The notes under the pieces: generated by a model | Seen by the model: the letters and a program-made list of their open reading frames with translations, nothing else | What the model was told of the DNA's origin: nothing | Database searches by the model: none | From: Flavobacteriales bacterium | Lineage (GTDB): Bacteria; Bacteroidota; Bacteroidia; Flavobacteriales_D; Sanyastnellaceae | DNA: 64,000 nucleotides | Assembly: GCA_018402085.1 (NCBI GenBank) | Contig: JAGYJM010000002.1 | Coordinates: 2,805,501 to 2,869,500 of the forward strand | Direction of reading: 5' to 3' | In this document: piece by piece, positions 11,254 to 54,640 of the stretch | Layout of the letters: every line of letters starts with the position of its first letter | Numbering within the stretch: position 1 is the first letter of the stretch | Position numbers and translations under genes: made by a program

Positions 11254-11646
11254 CTATTCTAAACCAGCGCAATTGCAGGATGTGAAAGCGTCTCCTGATA
11301 ATTCCACAATGACAGAAGCTGTATCACGCAATTCTACGATCGATTGCACCTCCATTTCGCTGAAATCTACCACATAGCGCCGCACCGATGCTCGCGTATC
11401 ACTCTCCGAAAAGCGCACACTGCCGTATTTCAGCCCGTCAATCACCAGGCTGTCACTAAGACCGGAGCAGACTTTCATGCACTCTGCATAAGACGTATAG
11501 CGCACAGGCTTCTGCAAAATCTGTTCCTTCACCCGGTTTTCAGGCATCCAGCCTGTACAATTGCGCTGCCCGAAAAGCACAAATGACAGCAGCACTCCGA
11601 TAAAGATACCAACGAGGTAGCGCGAAAGACGTTGTTTGAAATTCAT
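11254..11646 (-). CDS. Small membrane-anchored protein of unknown function
   Basis: A 130-residue protein with one N-terminal membrane helix (YLVGIFIGVLLSFVLF) followed by GQRNCTGWMPENRVKEQIL. The soluble remainder contains Cys residues in RNCTGW, YAECMKVCSG and the C-terminal SCNCAGLE. I recognise it only as a type of hypothetical protein seen in other Bacteroidota. It is convergent with the proline dehydrogenase gene. A -7 box ends five bases before the ATG, so the mRNA is probably leaderless. No function can be assigned; the Cys pattern could bind metal or form disulfides. Confidence 0.7.
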   Translation of the reverse strand: MNFKQRLSRYLVGIFIGVLLSFVLFGQRNCTGWMPENRVKEQILQKPVRYTSYAECMKVCSGLSDSLVIDGLKYGSVRFSESDTRASVRRYVVDFSEMEVQSIVELRDTASVIVELSGDAFTSCNCAGLE

Positions 11647-11805: not shown

Positions 11806-11848
11806 TTGAGAATGAGAATGAGAATGAGAGGGAAAGGGAAAGGGAAAG
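11806..11848. repeat. Polypurine hexamer microsatellite
   Basis: Repeats of GAGAAT followed by GGGAAA sit directly in front of the 119-bp array. Similar polypurine/polypyrimidine hexamers occur at 30603-30630, 36735-36770 and 49068-49090. Confidence 0.75.
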
Positions 11849-11857
11849 TGCCCCATA

Positions 11858-12540
11858 GCGCCGCATCCTTGCGGCGCTATGGTTTTACGGTGGCATTGGA
11901 CAGGGACGCCATCTTGGCGTCCGAGAATCTTCGGGCTACGATAACACTTGTTTCCACGAATCGTGAAGCCATCTTAGCGCCGCATCCTTGCGGCGCTTTG
12001 GTTTTACGGTGGCATTGGACAGGGACGCCATCTTGGCGTCCGAGCATCTTCGGGCTACGATAATACTTGTTTCCACGAATCGTGAAGCCATCTTAGCGCC
12101 GCATCCTTGCGGCGCTTTGGTTTTACGGTGGCATTGGACAGGGACGCCATCTTGGCGTCCGAGCATCTTCGGGCTACGATAACACTTGTTTCCACGAATC
12201 GTGAAGCCATCTTGCATCCGCATCCTTGCGGCGCTCTTGATCACTGTGAGACCCCAGAGAGGGATGCCTCACAGGCATCCGAGAATCTTCGGGCTACGAT
12301 AATACTTGTTTCCACGAATCGTGAAGCCATCTTGCATCCGCATCCTTGCGGCGCTCTTGATCACTGTGAGACCCCAGAGAGGGATGCCTCACAGGCATCC
12401 GAGAATCTTCGGGCTACGATAACACTTGTTTCCACGAATCGTGAAGCCATCTTGCATCCGCATCCTTGCGGCGCTCTTGATCACTGTGAGACCCCAGAGA
12501 GGGATGCCTCACAGGCATCCGAGAATCTTCGGGCTACGAC
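11858..12540. repeat. Tandem array of 119/120-bp units with two hairpins per unit
   Basis: Six units start at 11858, 11977, 12096, 12215, 12335 and 12455; the last is partial. Each unit has a first palindrome and a second palindrome separated by about 25-30 bases. A constant half follows, running from TTCGGGCTACGATAA to CGTGAAGCCATCTT. Units 1-3 carry GCGCCGCATCCTTGCGGCGC and GGACGCCATCTTGGCGTCC. Units 4-6 carry a different first half, with GGATGCCTCACAGGCATCC in place of the second palindrome, so both arms changed together. Reading frames across the array are by-products of the period. Nothing suggests CRISPR: there are no unique spacers. The stretch 11660-11805 before it holds no gene. Confidence 0.92.
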
Positions 12541-12648
12541 GATTTTCACAAAACGGGTCAACACGCCGCGAAATCACCCCGGATCCCCGCCCGCCGATCA
12601 TTCAATCGTCAATCCAAAACCCCTACCTTAGTCACACAAACCAACACC

Positions 12649-13191
12649 ATGAGCATCCGCAGACCATTCAACCTTTTTCGATGGATTGAAGACAATCGCG
12701 CCCTGCTGAAACCACCGGTAGGTAACAAAAATCTCTATGTAGAAAGCGAAGACTATATCGTCATGATCGTCGGAGGCCCTAACGCACGAAAAGATTACCA
12801 TTACAACGAAACGGAAGAGCTGTTTTTTCAGCTCGAAGGCGACATCAATGTGCGCATTCAAGAAGACGGCAAAGCAGTCGATATCCCTATAAAAGCAGGT
12901 GAAATGTACCTGCACCCGGCCAAAGTGCCGCACTCACCTATGCGCTCTGAAGGATCAATAGGTCTTGTCATCGAACGCAAGCGGGCAACCTCCGAAGGTC
13001 AAGACGGACTCCTTTGGTTCTGCGACAAATGCAACCACAAGCTGCACGAAACGTATTTCCCGCTGTCAAATATCGAGCAAGACTTTCTGCCCCGCTTCAA
13101 AGAATTCTACAACTCACTTGAGCTGCGCACCTGTGACAATTGCGGTCACGTGATGGAGACCGATGAGCGCTTCACCGAGCAGGATATCTGA
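12649..13191 (+). CDS. nbaC: 3-hydroxyanthranilate 3,4-dioxygenase
   Basis: A 180-residue cupin enzyme that opens the ring of 3-hydroxyanthranilate, giving the precursor of quinolinate (NAD synthesis) or of 2-aminomuconate (tryptophan degradation). The Fe(II) ligands are visible as His51, Glu57 and His95 ([13 protein letters not shown] and [12 protein letters not shown]), with Arg99 nearby. The bacterial second metal site is intact: Cys125/Cys128 in CDKC and Cys162/Cys165 in CDNC. This spacing is the same as in the characterised bacterial enzyme. Kynurenine 3-monooxygenase, which works two steps earlier, lies 34 kb away in this window. A degenerate -7 box (TACCTTAG, 12624-12631) precedes the start. 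Confidence 0.95.
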
Positions 13192-30602: not shown

Positions 30603-31564
30603 GAATGGAAGTGGAAATGGAAATGGAGGTCCGGAGACTTATGGACGCATCGACTTATGGACTTATGGACCTATGGACAATTCGGGGAACGGGGAACTGG
30701 GTATACGGACACGCGAGGCGCGTCCCTACGTGATGCACCTTGCACGTAAAAGCGCCACAAGAATGTGGCGCACTGCAATCCCGTTCTCGGGATTGCTCTT
30801 TCATCCTGTAGCGGTTTGTAGGGACGCATTTAATGCGTCCTAAGACCCATCGACTTATGGACCTATGGACAATTCGGGGAACGGGGAACTGGGTATACGG
30901 ACACGCGAGGCGCGTCCCTACGTGATGCACCTTGTACGTAAAAGCGCCACAAGAATGTGGCGCACTGCAATCCCGTTCTCGGGATTGCTCTTTCATCCTG
31001 TAGCGGTTTGTAGGGACGCATTTAATGCGTCCTAAGACCCATCGACTTATGTACCTGTAGACAATTCGGGGAACGGGGAACTGGGTATACGGACACGCGA
31101 GGCGCGTCCCTACGTGATGCACCTTGCACGTAAAAGCGCCACAAGAATGTGGCGCACCGCAATCCCGTTCTCGGGATTGCTCTTTCATCCTGTAGCGGTT
31201 TGTAGGGACGCATTTAATGCGTCCTAAGACCCATCGACTTATGGACCTATGGACAATTCGGGGAACGGGGAACTGGGTATACGGACACGCGAGGCGCGTC
31301 CCTACGTGATGCACCTTGCACGTAAAAGCGCCACAAGAATGTGGCGCACTGCAATCCCGTTCTCGGGATTGCTCTTTCATCCTGTAGCGGTTTGTAGGGA
31401 CGCATTTAATGCGTCCTAAGACCCATCGACTTATGTACCTGTAGACAATTCGGGGAACGGGGAACGTAGTTTGCAGACGGCTTTCAGCCATTGGTCCTCC
31501 GAGCGAAGCCGTCTCTTCCCCCAACCCCCGACTCCAGACCGCAGACCGCAGACTGCAGACTGCT
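30603..31564. repeat. 192-bp tandem array with flanking low-complexity DNA
   Basis: After a polypurine hexamer run (30603-30630) and an 8-bp-phased tract (30635-30675) comes an array with period exactly 192 bp; the same TTCGGGGAACGGGGAAC block starts at 30681, 30873, 31065, 31257 and 31449. Each unit holds four palindromes, located in unit 1 as follows: a CGCGAGGCGCG element near 30710, GCGCCACAAGAATGTGGCGC (30752-30771), a GCAATCCCG/CGGGATTGC hairpin (30775-30796) and GGACGCATTTAATGCGTCC (30822-30840). Because 192 is a multiple of three, a long minus-strand frame stays open; I do not regard it as a gene. The array ends in AGACCGC/AGACTGC 7-mers (31535-31562), directly against the next promoter. 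Confidence 0.92.
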
Positions 31565-34722: not shown

Positions 34723-34880
34723 AATCTGCAATCCCGTTTACGGGATTGCTCTTTTACACAGTGGTATTTGTAGGGACGCATTTAATGCGTCCTGAAATGA
34801 GTGCGTGTCGCATCGGGCACAATACGATATCCTCCTATGGGTCAACACATCGCAATCCGGACGCGCGAGGCGCGTCCCTA
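34723..34880. repeat. Partial copy of the 192-bp unit's palindrome cassettes
   Basis: A GCAATCCCG/CGGGATTGC hairpin (34728-34749), GGACGCATTTAATGCGTCC (34774-34792) and GGACGCGCGAGGCGCGTCC (34859-34877) occur in that order. They share flanking words (GATTGCTCTTT, TTTGTAGGGACGC, GTCCCTACG) with the array at 30.7-31.4 kb. The first two are spaced as in that array. The rest of 34615-34966 holds no gene. Confidence 0.85.
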
Positions 34881-34966
34881 CGGTTTTCCGTAAATAAACA
34901 GGAGCAGCGCAATAATGCGCTCACCGCTATCCAGTGTCCACTACCCGCCATCCATCGCGATACCCT

Positions 34967-36104: not shown

Positions 36105-36862
36105 AGTTCTTGCATCCTGCTGAATTGTTCTAATTCAGCAATCGACAGCTCTGCAATCTGCGATACAGCCGTCGCTGTCCTCCTGAGTGCTCCCGCACAG
36201 CGGGAGTGTATCGAAGGGGGACACGGCGACCATCATCTGCTCCTTTCTCACCAAAACTTCCTAAATTCAGCGTGACATTAGATAGAACACAGATGGACAA
36301 ACGCAATAACCAATACTCTCCAAATAGCCCGGTAAAGTGCACTCGAGTTAACTTTATCCACCCAAAAGGGTGGGATGAAGAGTACTCTCGTTATTGATTA
36401 TTGCGCTTATAGCCTAGTTCCCAACCATAAAGTTGTTTGGTGTTTCTTTCGTTGCGTAAAGCATTTCTCCTTATCTCGGGTCTTCAAGCACCTAGTTCTC
36501 ATCGCAACCTCCCTACCTCCCTTTCTTGCTACCTCTCTATACGACCATAGGTCTACTTGTCGATAGGTCGATGCGTCTGTGTGTCCATGGACGGCCTGGG
36601 AGATGTCTCTATCTCTATAAAATGTATTTATCGTCATACCAATATTCTCGGACGCCTGGGAGGCGCCCCTATCTACGAACCACCAAAAACCAAAAGCGCC
36701 GCAAGGATGCGGCGCCAACACCCTCAACATCTTTCCATTCTCATTCTTACTCTTATTCTAATTCTCCGGTTTCCCGGTTCACCATGCTCCCCACCTCCCT
36801 TTCTAGCTACCTCCCTTCACGACCATAGCTCGATGCGTCCATCGGTCCACACGCCCACCCAT
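36105..36862. repeat. Gene-free region with hairpins and octamer tracts
   Basis: CTCCCGCACAGCGGGAG (36190-36206) comes first. Then a low-GC block has 14-base inverted arms (36302-36315 and 36392-36405, one mismatch) around the hairpin CCACCCAAAAGGGTGG (36358-36373). After that there are two octamer tracts (36548-36600 and 36833-36860), the near-palindrome GGACGCCTGGGAGGCGCCC (36650-36668), GCGCCGCAAGGATGCGGCGC (36696-36715) and a polypyrimidine hexamer run (36725-36770). Frames here are short and made of repeat words. I see no gene. Confidence 0.75.
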
Positions 36863-37690: not shown

Positions 37691-37930
37691 TTCCAAAATC
37701 GTCCATAGGTCCATAGGTCGATGCGTCGACATGTCTTCGGACGCATAAAATGCGTCCCTACAAAATGCTATTGGATCAAAAGGTAGGGACGCGCCTCGTG
37801 CGTCCACAGTTCCGCAGCTGAAGGGTCTGAGAGGTTGATGGTGATGATTTTCGGAGATGCTCCACTAAACCCCTCTGTCGTCCCGACATGTCGGGGCGAC
37901 CTCTCCCCTAATTTTAGGGGAGACTTTTAT
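37691..37930 (+). repeat. 240-bp dispersed composite repeat, copy 1
   Basis: Order: TTTCCAAAATC, an octamer tract (GTCCATAG twice, GTCGATGC, GTCGACAT, GTCTTCGG), GGACGCATAAAATGCGTCC (37739-37757), an ACAAAATGCTATTGGAT spacer, a GGACGCGC/GTGCGTCC near-palindrome (37787-37805), a TCTGAGAGGTTGATGGTGAT segment, CCCGACATGTCGGG (37882-37895) and CTCCCCTAATTTTAGGGGAG (37903-37922). Copy 2 at 42352-42588 has the same order and orientation. The remaining parts of 37586-38180 contain a further degenerate octamer tract at 38049-38100 and no gene. Confidence 0.88.
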
Positions 37931-38730: not shown

Positions 38731-39030
38731 CGCAAGGGTGTGCTGCCCGCACCTTTGACCCAAGAGCTTCCCAAGCCGTCCATCGGTCGATGCGTCTGTG
38801 TGTCGATGGACGCCTGGGAGGCGCCCCTATCTAGGCTACCGTGTACACAACCGCGCCACAAGGATGTGGCGCCATCCAGGACTGCCCGCTGCATTCTGCG
38901 TCCCGATAAATCCTGCGCTTTCGCGCAGATAAACAACCTCGCTATCTACCTATCTAGCTACCTGGCTTCTTCTTATTCTCCCAGTTTACCATGCTCCCGG
39001 TTTCTCGAATCGTCCATAGGTCTTCCCATT
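38731..39030. repeat. Octamer tract and palindromes, no gene
   Basis: An octamer tract (GTCCATCG, GTCGATGC, GTCTGTGT, GTCGATGG; 38779-38810) runs directly into the near-palindrome GGACGCCTGGGAGGCGCCC (38808-38826). GCGCCACAAGGATGTGGCGC (38853-38872) and CTGCGCTTTCGCGCAG (38913-38928) follow. The region ends in TCCCAGTTTACC and GTCCATAG words before the convergent symporter gene. Confidence 0.85.
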
Positions 39031-40362: not shown

Positions 40363-40933
40363 AGCATGTCAAGTAAGGGTTATTCCACCTCGAATATACG
40401 TCCATGCAATCGGTTAAGAATGTAAAATTGTCTCTATCTGACGCCTGGGAGGCGTCTTCATCTGCATAAAACGAACCTTCTGGTCACCCCCTCTATTCTC
40501 GGACGCCTGGGAGGCGTCCCTCTCGAATTGTCTCAAGACATAACTGCGCCGCAAGGATGCGGCGGCAGACAGCGCTGCCCGATACATCGGGACAAGTTTC
40601 GCGCTGCAAAAGTCTACCTCGCTAGCGGAACTGCCTGGCGGCAGACAGGCGCGATGAATCCGGCGGACGCGATGAATCCGGCGGACGCGATGAATCCGGC
40701 GGACGCGATAAATCGCGTCCCTACGGCGACCTATTTCCAACAGTGACCCTATCTCCCAGTTTCCAAAATCGTCCATGCGTCTATGCGTCCATAAGTCCAT
40801 AGATCCACGCGTCGATATGTCTAAGGTTTCCCATGCTCCCAGCTTACCGGTTTCCCTAATCGTCCATAGGTCGATGCGTCTATGCGTCGATAGGTCTGTC
40901 GGCCTCCATCGAACTAATCCCCCACTCAATCGT
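40363..40933. repeat. Palindromes, 18-bp tandem array and octamer tracts
   Basis: GACGCCTGGGAGGCGTC (40440-40456), GGACGCCTGGGAGGCGTCC (40501-40519), CGCCGCAAGGATGCGGCG (40547-40564) and CCCGATACATCGGG (40578-40591) come in succession. Three units of the 18-mer GCGATGAATCCGGCGGAC (40651-40704) end in the palindrome GGACGCGATAAATCGCGTCC (40701-40720). Two octamer tracts follow (40772-40830 and 40868-40905). No gene is visible. Confidence 0.9.
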
Positions 40934-42351: not shown

Positions 42352-42588
42352 TTTCCAAAATCGTCCATAAGTCCATAGGTCGATGCGTCGACATGTCTTC
42401 GGACGCATTAAATGCGTCCCTACAAAATGCTATTGGATAAAAGGTAGGGACGCGCCTCGCGCGTCCACAGCCCCGAGGCAACGGGGTCTGAGAGGTTGAT
42501 GGTGATGATTTTCGGAGATTCTCCACACCCCCCCCTGTCGAGCGCTTTACGGTCGGCATCTCCCCTAATTTTAGGGGAGACTTTTAAT
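42352..42588 (+). repeat. 240-bp dispersed composite repeat, copy 2
   Basis: It has the same order as copy 1 at 37691-37930. It contains GGACGCATTAAATGCGTCC (42401-42419), a perfect GGACGCGCCTCGCGCGTCC (42448-42466; copy 1 has a mismatch here) and CTCCCCTAATTTTAGGGGAG (42560-42579). The CCCGACATGTCGGG element of copy 1 is replaced by unrelated bases. Confidence 0.88.
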
Positions 42589-42622
42589 AAGGGAGAGCTG
42601 ACCTGCCCGGCGGCAGGCAGGC

Positions 42623-42710
42623 GCGATGAATCCGGCGGACGCGATAAATCCGGCGGACGCGATGAATCCAGCGGACGCGATAAATCCGGCGGACGCGATA
42701 AATCGCGTCC
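42623..42710 (+). repeat. 18-bp tandem array ending in a complete palindrome
   Basis: Four units alternate GCGATGAATCCGGCGGAC and GCGATAAATCCGGCGGAC (one with CCAGC). They end in GGACGCGATAAATCGCGTCC. Each unit is the left half of the terminal palindrome plus CC and GGC. An octamer tract follows at 42764-42815. Confidence 0.9.
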
Positions 42711-48592: not shown

Positions 48593-49130
48593 TTCGGAAT
48601 GCACAATGCAGAATTTGTTGGGGTTGTGCGCTAACAGTTCTCCTCCTGAAATCATCAATTAACTGCTGCTCCCCTCCGCTGAGGGGAGCTGTCGATTTTC
48701 ACGAAGTGAAACATCGACTGAGGGGTGTGGCGACAGAGGGGTTTTTCGAGCGTCTTCGGAGATGCTCCCACTCAACCTCTCAGCCCCGCAGTTGCGGGGC
48801 AGCTCTCCTGATCTCAGGAGAGCCTTGGGTGCCCTTAAATAAATAATCAATCTGAAATCGCTAATCGGCATTGATCAATATTAAGTCTCCCCTCAAATGA
48901 GGGGAGATGTCCCGCAGGTGCGGGACAGAGGGGTTTTTCGAGCGTCTTCGGAAACACAACCCTGCTCAAAGAATGACTGCAATGTTGCGGATTCTCGGAC
49001 GCATGGGAGGCGTCCCTATCTGCGATTCACCTTAATCCTAAAGCGCCGCAAGGATGCGGCGGCTTTCCATTTCCACTTCCATTTCCATGCGCGCACTGAC
49101 GTACGCGCTCACAAACTTTCTGTCCGTTTT
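48593..49130. repeat. Gene-free region with a series of CTCCCCT-type and GGACGC palindromes
   Basis: Palindromes in order are CTCCCCTCCGCTGAGGGGAG (48669-48688), CCCCGCAGTTGCGGGG (48784-48799), CTCTCCTGATCTCAGGAGAG (48803-48822), CTCCCCTCAAATGAGGGGAG (48887-48906), TCCCGCAGGTGCGGGA (48910-48925), GGACGCATGGGAGGCGTCC (48997-49015, one mismatch) and CGCCGCAAGGATGCGGCG (49044-49061). The segment AGAGGGGTTTTTCGAGCGTC occurs twice (48736 and 48928). A polypyrimidine hexamer run is at 49068-49090. No gene is visible. Confidence 0.88.
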
Positions 49131-54250: not shown

Positions 54251-54640
54251 TGTGTGGGCTGCGGATAACCGTCTGCTGTCAGCGGTCTGCGGTACGAGCC
54301 CCCTCAACAAACGGCTGCTGGTAGCAGCCTCCCAGCCCTGATGCCCTGCGCTTCAACTGACCGGCGGCCATAGCCGCTCACCAGTGCGCGCACACTGCAG
54401 TGTGCGCCTGCAATAGTCCGGCGGCAATAGCCGCCGCCACACAAATTTAGCCTTGTATAAAAAGCAGCGCAAGGATGCGCTGCCCACCTAACTTCTAACC
54501 CGAAAGCACCCTGAAAGACCCCTCACCCGAGAATCCCGCAGGTGCGCGGGATCTCGGGAGCTCCCCTGATTCCAGGGGAGCCTTTGAGTATTTGCACGTC
54601 CAGAAAGAGCCGCTCTCGCTGAAGCTATCCAATTCTGTCG
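54251..54640. repeat. Gene-free region with palindromes
   Basis: CTGCGG/GTCTGC words come first. The palindrome GCGCACACTGCAGTGTGCGC (54388-54407) has its other copy near 15998. CCGGCGGCCATAGCCG and CCGGCGGCAATAGCCG words flank it. GCAGCGCAAGGATGCGCTGC (54464-54483) has the AGGA loop shared with other palindromes but a different stem. CTCCCCTGATTCCAGGGGAG lies at 54561-54580. No gene is visible. Confidence 0.85.

Follow-up and report, generated by a model that had tools for sequence, protein, structure and literature searches.

The window analyzed here (the whole stretch of 64,000 nucleotides) contains, in front of a gene for 3-hydroxyanthranilate 3,4-dioxygenase (3-HAO), tandem units with very similar spacers and two versions of a hairpin that differ in both arms of the stem. 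How did both arms come to change together in the middle of an array, and does the array act on the gene that follows? The most probable answer is a tandem cluster of REP-like elements, with a module akin to the ends of RAYT genes and with two lineages (A and B) that have multiplied. Such a block of mixed type bears on how REP-like arrays grow and trade parts; the multiplication of REP-like elements, their clustering in tandem and the matching of both stem arms are unsettled. The genus allows spread, amplification, and exchange to be compared side by side, since it offers several RAYT-type genes with differing hairpins, many arrays and two same-genus genomes with other stems.

Anatomy of the array

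The array (11854–12539) consists of six units of 119/120 bp in the order AAABBB, with anchors at steps of 119–120 bp, and it is detected by TRF with scores of 870 and 893, periods of 119 and 120, and 94% matches. Both agree with the initial annotation, which had described six units in two versions (units 1–3 and 4–6). Each unit contains one copy of a module of ~75 nt, made of a first hairpin H1 (core CGCA-TNNT-TGCG), a linker of 27–33 nt ending in a short xAG tag, and a second hairpin H2 (GGGAxGxx...TCC). In type A (u1–u3), the modules A1, A2, and A3 occupy 11854–11928, 11973–12047, and 12092–12166 on the + strand (82.4, 81.3, and 81.3 bits); in A1, H1 is formed by GCGCCGCA/TGCGGCGC and the GACAG-tagged H2 has the stem GGACGCC/GGCGTCC. 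In type B (u4–u6), the modules B1, B2, and B3 occupy 12211–12286, 12331–12406, and 12451–12526 on the + strand (64.4 bits each), with a different linker and a GAGAG-tagged H2 with the stem GGATGCC/GGCATCC. Between u3 and u4, both arms of H2 are thus altered, exactly as had been read from the sequence at first. The canonical GTAG tag is absent from this array. The covariance-model E values of the six units in the window search (4e-18 to 8e-14) are partly circular; the model comprises 46 module copies, 3 of them taken from the array itself.

The left arm of the first palindrome was also said to be lost in type B. The loss is partial: AGCG is replaced by GCAT in the left arm, and a 5-bp stem CCGCA/TGCGG remains. 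The full perfect 13-bp first palindrome is found only in u1, which has on its left a purine-rich hexamer tract, (GAGAAT)n(GGGAAA)n (11808–11848, +), rather than the spacer; a flank of this hexamer type also precedes H1 at several single module copies elsewhere. Folded as single-stranded DNA, one type A unit gives z values of -4.9 (+) and -5.4 (-) and type B values of -1.7 (+) and -2.1 (-). The hairpin folding of type A exceeds chance and that of type B is weaker.

The five 53-nt spacers (11923–11975 on the + strand, then 12042–12094, 12161–12213, 12281–12333, and 12401–12453) are pairwise identical at 51–53 of 53 positions (96–100%), with two variable sites, GAG[A/C]ATC and TAA[C/T]AC. The half common to all units, first taken to be exact, is therefore near-identical. 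After B3, the first 19 nt of the spacer sequence (12521–12539, +) close the array, and this tail is identical to the tail after A. Phage and plasmid records gave no match.

The module family and the RAYT-like genes

In its own genome, 360 bp of the array have 94 matches, the array itself counted. Of 35 stretches read from this genome, 30 contain a total of 135 modules in 54 clusters (the stretches were picked for holding matches, and the counts carry no information on genome-wide density). The H1-to-H2 spacing is 27–33 nt in 81/81 modules of a first search, which allowed about 13–60 nt, and in 135/135 modules of a second one with a slightly wider motif, which allowed about 18–53 nt. Thirty clusters are single modules and 24 hold from two to nine modules, with one strand throughout in 17 of these 24.

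High copy number and extragenic position, both features of REPs, are found. The type A hairpin pattern has 169+144 matches in the genome (1+2 for a reversed-pattern control) and the type B pattern 23+20 (0+0 for the control). No overlap of >20 bp with a gene call occurs for 121/135 modules and 45/54 clusters, counting all calls of a home-made gene finder; one or more of the calls that overlap are reading frames running across a 60-bp array. In the loci read, A stands directly before GGG in 258 of 270 H2-type hairpins, and the foot sequences include GATA (142), GAGA (68), GTA (34), and GACA (6). The GTAG tag is present in 34/270 hairpins (also in some arrays and at RAYT ends), the tags GATAG, GAGAG, or GACAG in 216/270, and AG in 258/270.

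Tandem arrays with such hairpins have periods that include 60, 109, 113, 165, 169, 180, and 211 bp (20 stretches) and, in further stretches, 45, 83, 100, 133–157, 167, 214, 230, 247, and 258 bp. The repeated part is H2 by itself in some arrays (45 and 60 bp) and the complete two-hairpin module in most others. At L023 (7088–9105) and L021 (6873–8070), 60-bp arrays of 33.6 and 20 units are built on the tagged hairpin; long ORFs run through the array of L023, and automatic annotation may yield false genes there. In the window, a second module array (30701–31351, -) has a 192-bp period and four copies on the - strand, with weaker modules on the + strand between them (TRF: 30660–31465, 4.2 copies, 97% matches). 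Besides the two arrays, the window holds at least eight single matches to the covariance model of the module: one at 34853–34927 (-), others on the same strand at 36644–36719, 38802–38876, 40495–40569, 48991–49066, and 54413–54487, and two on the + strand at 37734–37811 and 42396–42472 (38 to 81 bits for these eight).

With the NCBIfam model NF047646 (curated cut-off 80 bits), seven RAYT/IS200-like genes appear in this genome, all below the cut-off. Five genes score 32 to 63 bits (the best 63.2), C2:2965269 comes in two pieces (28.8 and 21.9), and a Y1_Tnp gene scores 25.9. Among 14 control genomes, 8 give matches with the same model, 1 of them above the cut-off. At five of the seven genes (C1:84971, C2:2496526, C2:2518950, C2:2965269, and C2:3455622), modules are present on both sides in inverted arrangement (left module -, right module +), with H1 nearest to the gene. 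The downstream module starts at most 6 bases from the end of the stop codon in four of the five; at C2:2496526, it begins about 50 bases before that end and the frame runs into the module. The upstream module ends 67–77 bp before the start codon in the five genes (start codons chosen by the analyst). At C2:2965269, the module in front is weak (18.5 bits) and that behind has 34.8 bits.

The arrangement of a REPtron, a RAYT gene flanked by the same hairpins, is thus found at 5/7 genes for the module family, and not for the exact A or B type. No module at the RAYT genes is close to the linker of A or B (at best 0.70, for B, at C2:2496526), so none of these genes stands out as the cognate gene of the array. 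On either side of the RAYT-like gene at C2:2496526 lies a 60-bp array of the hairpin type that belongs to this gene (L035 655–2621). As for the two other genes, C2:1643187 has GTAG-tagged palindromes of another kind behind it and the module on neither side, and C2:1309048 has no flanking modules. Pfam Y1_Tnp alone was rejected as a link: one gene here has it, with no tagged hairpin within the 3.3 kb read around it, and the distribution of Y1_Tnp over 40 genomes does not track the hairpins.

Twelve RAYT-like proteins, 6 from this genome (C2:1309048 left out) and 6 from relatives, have in common MPDHxH, WQ, and a late Tyr. Residues H73, H75, and Y146, which compose the H-x-H of the HUH motif and the late Tyr, are invariant in 12/12, and Y146 would be the catalytic Tyr. 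Against the PDB, the profile of these proteins has TnpArep (4er8) as its only match at E 0.01 (E 2.2e-5), with no single stretch significant by itself. In the two same-genus genomes (G001 and G002), NF047646 has nine matches, of which eight were read; tagged hairpins are close by in 4/8 (on both sides in three) and absent in the other 4/8. On the 12-protein tree, the tag labels require 7 changes for a shuffled mean of 7.3 (as low in 115/200 shuffles), and no association of tags with RAYT phylogeny appears.

Enterobacterial BIMEs contain palindromic units with linkers, often in tandem and in alternating orientation. The family described here similarly has palindromic units and linkers that are often in tandem; however, the orientation in the 3-HAO array is single (for the definition of BIMEs, see PMC2817692 and PMC8266576). 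Two inverted REPs forming the unit of a REPIN or BIME are not observed here, all six modules being on the + strand with an H1 that is not an inverted H2. In Pseudomonas fluorescens SBW25, 16 ordered tandem REPIN clusters are described, the largest with four REPINs (PMC3116915). As there, near-identical hairpin elements and their flanks are repeated head to tail at many places of the genome, some of them beside RAYT genes (PMC3116915). On the other hand, REPINs are inverted REP doublets (PMC3116915), whereas the two hairpins of the present module differ from each other and have the same orientation; the clusters here reach nine modules, and an H2-only array ~33 units of 60 bp. GTAG REPs are known from P. 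putida and P. fluorescens, as are RAYT genes with double-hairpin TIRs (PMC3733652); the phylum and the stems are different here, and the tags include GATAG, GAGAG, and GACAG. The Bacteroidetes subclasses 2.4 and 2.6 of TnpAREP have hairpin-flanked RAYT genes (without GT[AG]G in 2.6) and, as here, more than one REP type per genome (PMC6006769). The literature thus already contains tandem REPIN clusters that take in flanking DNA, REP types specific to a RAYT, and RAYT ends with double hairpins (PMC3116915, PMC3733652, PMC6006769, PMC12306157); in the passages of PMC12306157, the word "tandem" is absent.

Both ends of RAYT-like gene units in this genome are formed by modules of this kind. RAYTs recognize tagged hairpins as single-stranded DNA (PMC8266576), and such an action would account, we infer, for the spread of modules through intergenic DNA. 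At the 3-HAO locus, modules of two lineages would have come to share one spacer, and A and B would each have given three copies, most likely by unequal recombination or replication slippage via the spacer, the conserved H1 core, and the H2 tail. The paired change of arms between u3 and u4 would then reflect either a whole module brought in by recombination or A and B being neighbors from the start.

Two lineages and one spacer

Over linker plus H2, A and B are 0.596 (60%) identical. When 1500 random pairs from a set of 77 distinct modules are compared in the same region, 69% of them are at least as alike (median 0.625). At other loci, the closest relative of A reaches 0.83 (C2:1508692) and that of B 0.787 (C2:1641667). 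Since A and B are only as similar as random members and have closer relatives elsewhere, they are not drifted copies of one sequence; they are two different members of the family, belonging to separate lineages. A search for isolated cassettes, proposed at the outset, does find bare hairpins: the exact B hairpin at three other places (C2:487085, 2045503, and 2307083) and the exact A hairpin at two others in the loci read (C2:1508692 and L035:2560). The simplest reading of the concerted stem change is that family members already differ in this way, rather than that it was made twice within the array.

The cassettes A and B are identical in 50 of 74 aligned columns and the spacer pair in 52 of 53 (Fisher p 7e-6, a guide value, the alignment columns not being independent). 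Ordinary point-mutation drift of one unit into A and B can invoke the two drifting sites that do occur in the spacers, but it would have to place 24 differences in 74 cassette columns against 1 in 53 of the spacer pair tested, and to bring A and B down to the similarity of random family members; it is scarcely credible. The modular reading of the initial annotation, opposed to drift, therefore stands (60% over linker and H2 vs. 96–100% in the spacers), with exchange inside the array as one of two histories.

The whole family provides a background for these two histories. Among 118 neighboring module pairs on the same strand, 92 are alike in upstream flank and cassette, 14 are intermediate, and 12 are unlike in linker plus H2 (<0.8). 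Within those 12, both flanks agree only in the inner A/B pairs of the 3-HAO array (upstream 0.95–0.97, downstream 0.95–0.97, linker plus H2 0.60). This agreement favors replacement of an A module by a B module within an existing tandem array (gene conversion or RAYT strand exchange, from H1 to the tail of H2) followed by copying, a history which comes close to an even chance. The 19-nt tail after B3 is what would be expected for B placed into an A context, and the disparity between cassette and spacer points the same way. However, no donor with the B linker is present in the loci read (at best 79%), and the block order AAABBB requires no exchange.

That order, with the full palindrome of A and the purine flank confined to u1 and with B at the right end, suits a second history, a serious one that we place short of even: A and B would have been unlike neighbors with a common spacer from the start, each multiplied by unequal crossing-over via the H1 core and the tail. 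Unlike modules with a common upstream flank do occur at four other loci, L027, L029, L032, and L036 (1.00, 0.82, 0.76, and 0.88; random median 0.48, 95% 0.57), H1 being also common at the first three. At all four, linker, H2, and downstream flank differ (the latter at 0.40–0.49), unlike in the 3-HAO array, and the equal 19-nt tails behind A and B would then be a coincidence or due to later homogenization. The unlike pair at L215 has nothing in common. These loci suggest that H1 is a frequent junction, a pattern that fits both the replacement of a module and the separate amplification of two neighbors.

Gene conversion of REPs was reportedly raised as a question by Higgins et al. in 1988. In open-licence PMC titles and abstracts, nothing was found that deals with this genus or with REP arrays combining two types of cassette. 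The pentanucleotide ATCTT flanks the putatively exchanged segment on both sides. Within it is CT, the dinucleotide at which E. coli TnpAREP cuts (PMC8266576); the presence of ATCTT on both sides is a lead only, chance occurrence being not unlikely. A broader proposal, unlikely in our estimate, is that the RAYTs themselves act on single-stranded DNA, cutting at each of the two hairpins and exchanging the segment from H1 to H2 among units of the array and copies at a distance. Arrays would then serve as a stock of tagged hairpin cassettes for trading, with stems and tags (GTAG, GATAG, GAGAG) diversifying along with their RAYTs.

Paired changes of the stems extend beyond the array. A selection of 46 from the 81 modules, with each locus represented once or a few times, has 96.2% of its cells paired. 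Both sides are changed in 9/16 stem pairs, and covariation scores 0.272 (0.074 shuffled, at most 0.066 slid); the copies are related, so that the covariation counts lean upward. Further pair types (18 vs. 14.3 in shuffles, reached by 12/500 shuffles) are less telling. Pairing was the criterion for selecting H2, and sequence that for the H1 core, which leaves the four outer H1 pairs as the only unbiased ones; all four show changes on both sides, the outermost being unpaired in 15/46. The paired change from C:G to T:A recurs in G001 and G002, where a pattern allowing mixed arms gives 72 matches, 46 of CG type, 26 of TA type, and 0 mixed (related copies, hence not 72 events). Selection on the hairpin could give rise to such paired changes, and so could template-switch repair that makes the arms match.

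The 3-HAO gene and the relatives

The 3-HAO gene (12649–13191, +) is recognized by NF009763 with 266.9 bits (cut-off 220), and its closest named relative, from a Flavobacteriales MAG, is 86% identical. It starts 109 bp past the end of the array, in agreement with the earlier statement that the array stands in front of it. On the other side is a divergent ORF of 130 aa without a family hit (11254–11646, -). Downstream from the array and 17 nt before the 3-HAO start, TACCTTAG (12624–12631, +) is a possible promoter element, presumably of the Bacteroidota -7 type (by eye). In G001 and G002, TACCTTAC occurs 16 nt before the 3-HAO start, and the gene lies 47 bp after an unrelated gene (by eye, an EamA-type transporter), without an array. 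The gene order differs in both of these genomes, and an empty site is not readable there.

An effect of the array on 3-HAO expression, as initially suggested, finds no support in these data: both same-genus genomes have the gene without the array, and the probable promoter, recognized by eye, is between array and gene. The same two points weigh against the array acting as a leader or terminator RNA that regulates 3-HAO or the divergent gene, a quite improbable reading despite the intergenic position between divergent genes and two terminator-like sites (H1 of A2 and of A3; 2 found vs. 1.0 expected). No Rfam family reaches its gathering score in the window. Moreover, the 51 classed clusters have no clear orientation bias (co-directional same 9, opposite 17, divergent 14, convergent 11), the gaps of at least 100 bp in the same stretches being 54 co-directional, 23 divergent, and 14 convergent; both sets of classes rest on home-made heuristic gene calls. 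The lack of a clear orientation or gene-end preference, with the presence of 3-HAO without the array in relatives, points to the array as a by-product of REP spread and recombination. It is likely to be neutral or selfish DNA and not to switch 3-HAO, absence of function being what these comparisons suggest.

In a set of 60 genomes, the module model has at least 80 matches in the genome of the array, and elsewhere 4 in G001, 2 in G002, 1 in G004, and 1 in G018. Over 395 genomes of the phylum (the own genome included), scanned with stricter filters and with 12 candidates scored per genome among those listed, two further single matches come from G132 and G179. By eye, the matches of G001 and G002 resemble two-hairpin modules with other stems, and those of G004, G018, G132, and G179 resemble ordinary terminator-type hairpins. 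Nothing comparable is found by the module model in the other 59/60 relatives and 394/395 phylum genomes (with stricter filters and few candidates scored). Because REP stems change fast, this negative speaks of these stems and not of RAYT hairpins generally.

Further repeats are present. Just before H1, there is often another palindrome, of the GTAGGCGCACACTGCAGTGTGCGC type and with (ATGGAA)n after it (L209 1819–2186, L016, L037, and the window near 49066), so that the module may belong to a longer mosaic. Many 7-bp repeats (GGGATCG, CGATCCC) occur near modules (L025 1665–3305, L022 4022–4075, and others), a hint that tandem expansion may come easily to this genome in general. The 18-bp repeats CGCGATGAATCCGGCGGA and CGCGATAAATCCGGCGGA are found in the window at 40650–40714 and 42622–42704, two places 2 kb apart. 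At L213 about 254–1299 (C2:2063753–2064798), an array that is CRISPR-like by its look has 36-nt direct repeats, GCTGGACTAAAATACGATCTGAAAGCCAATCACAAC, every ~66 bp with differing spacers.
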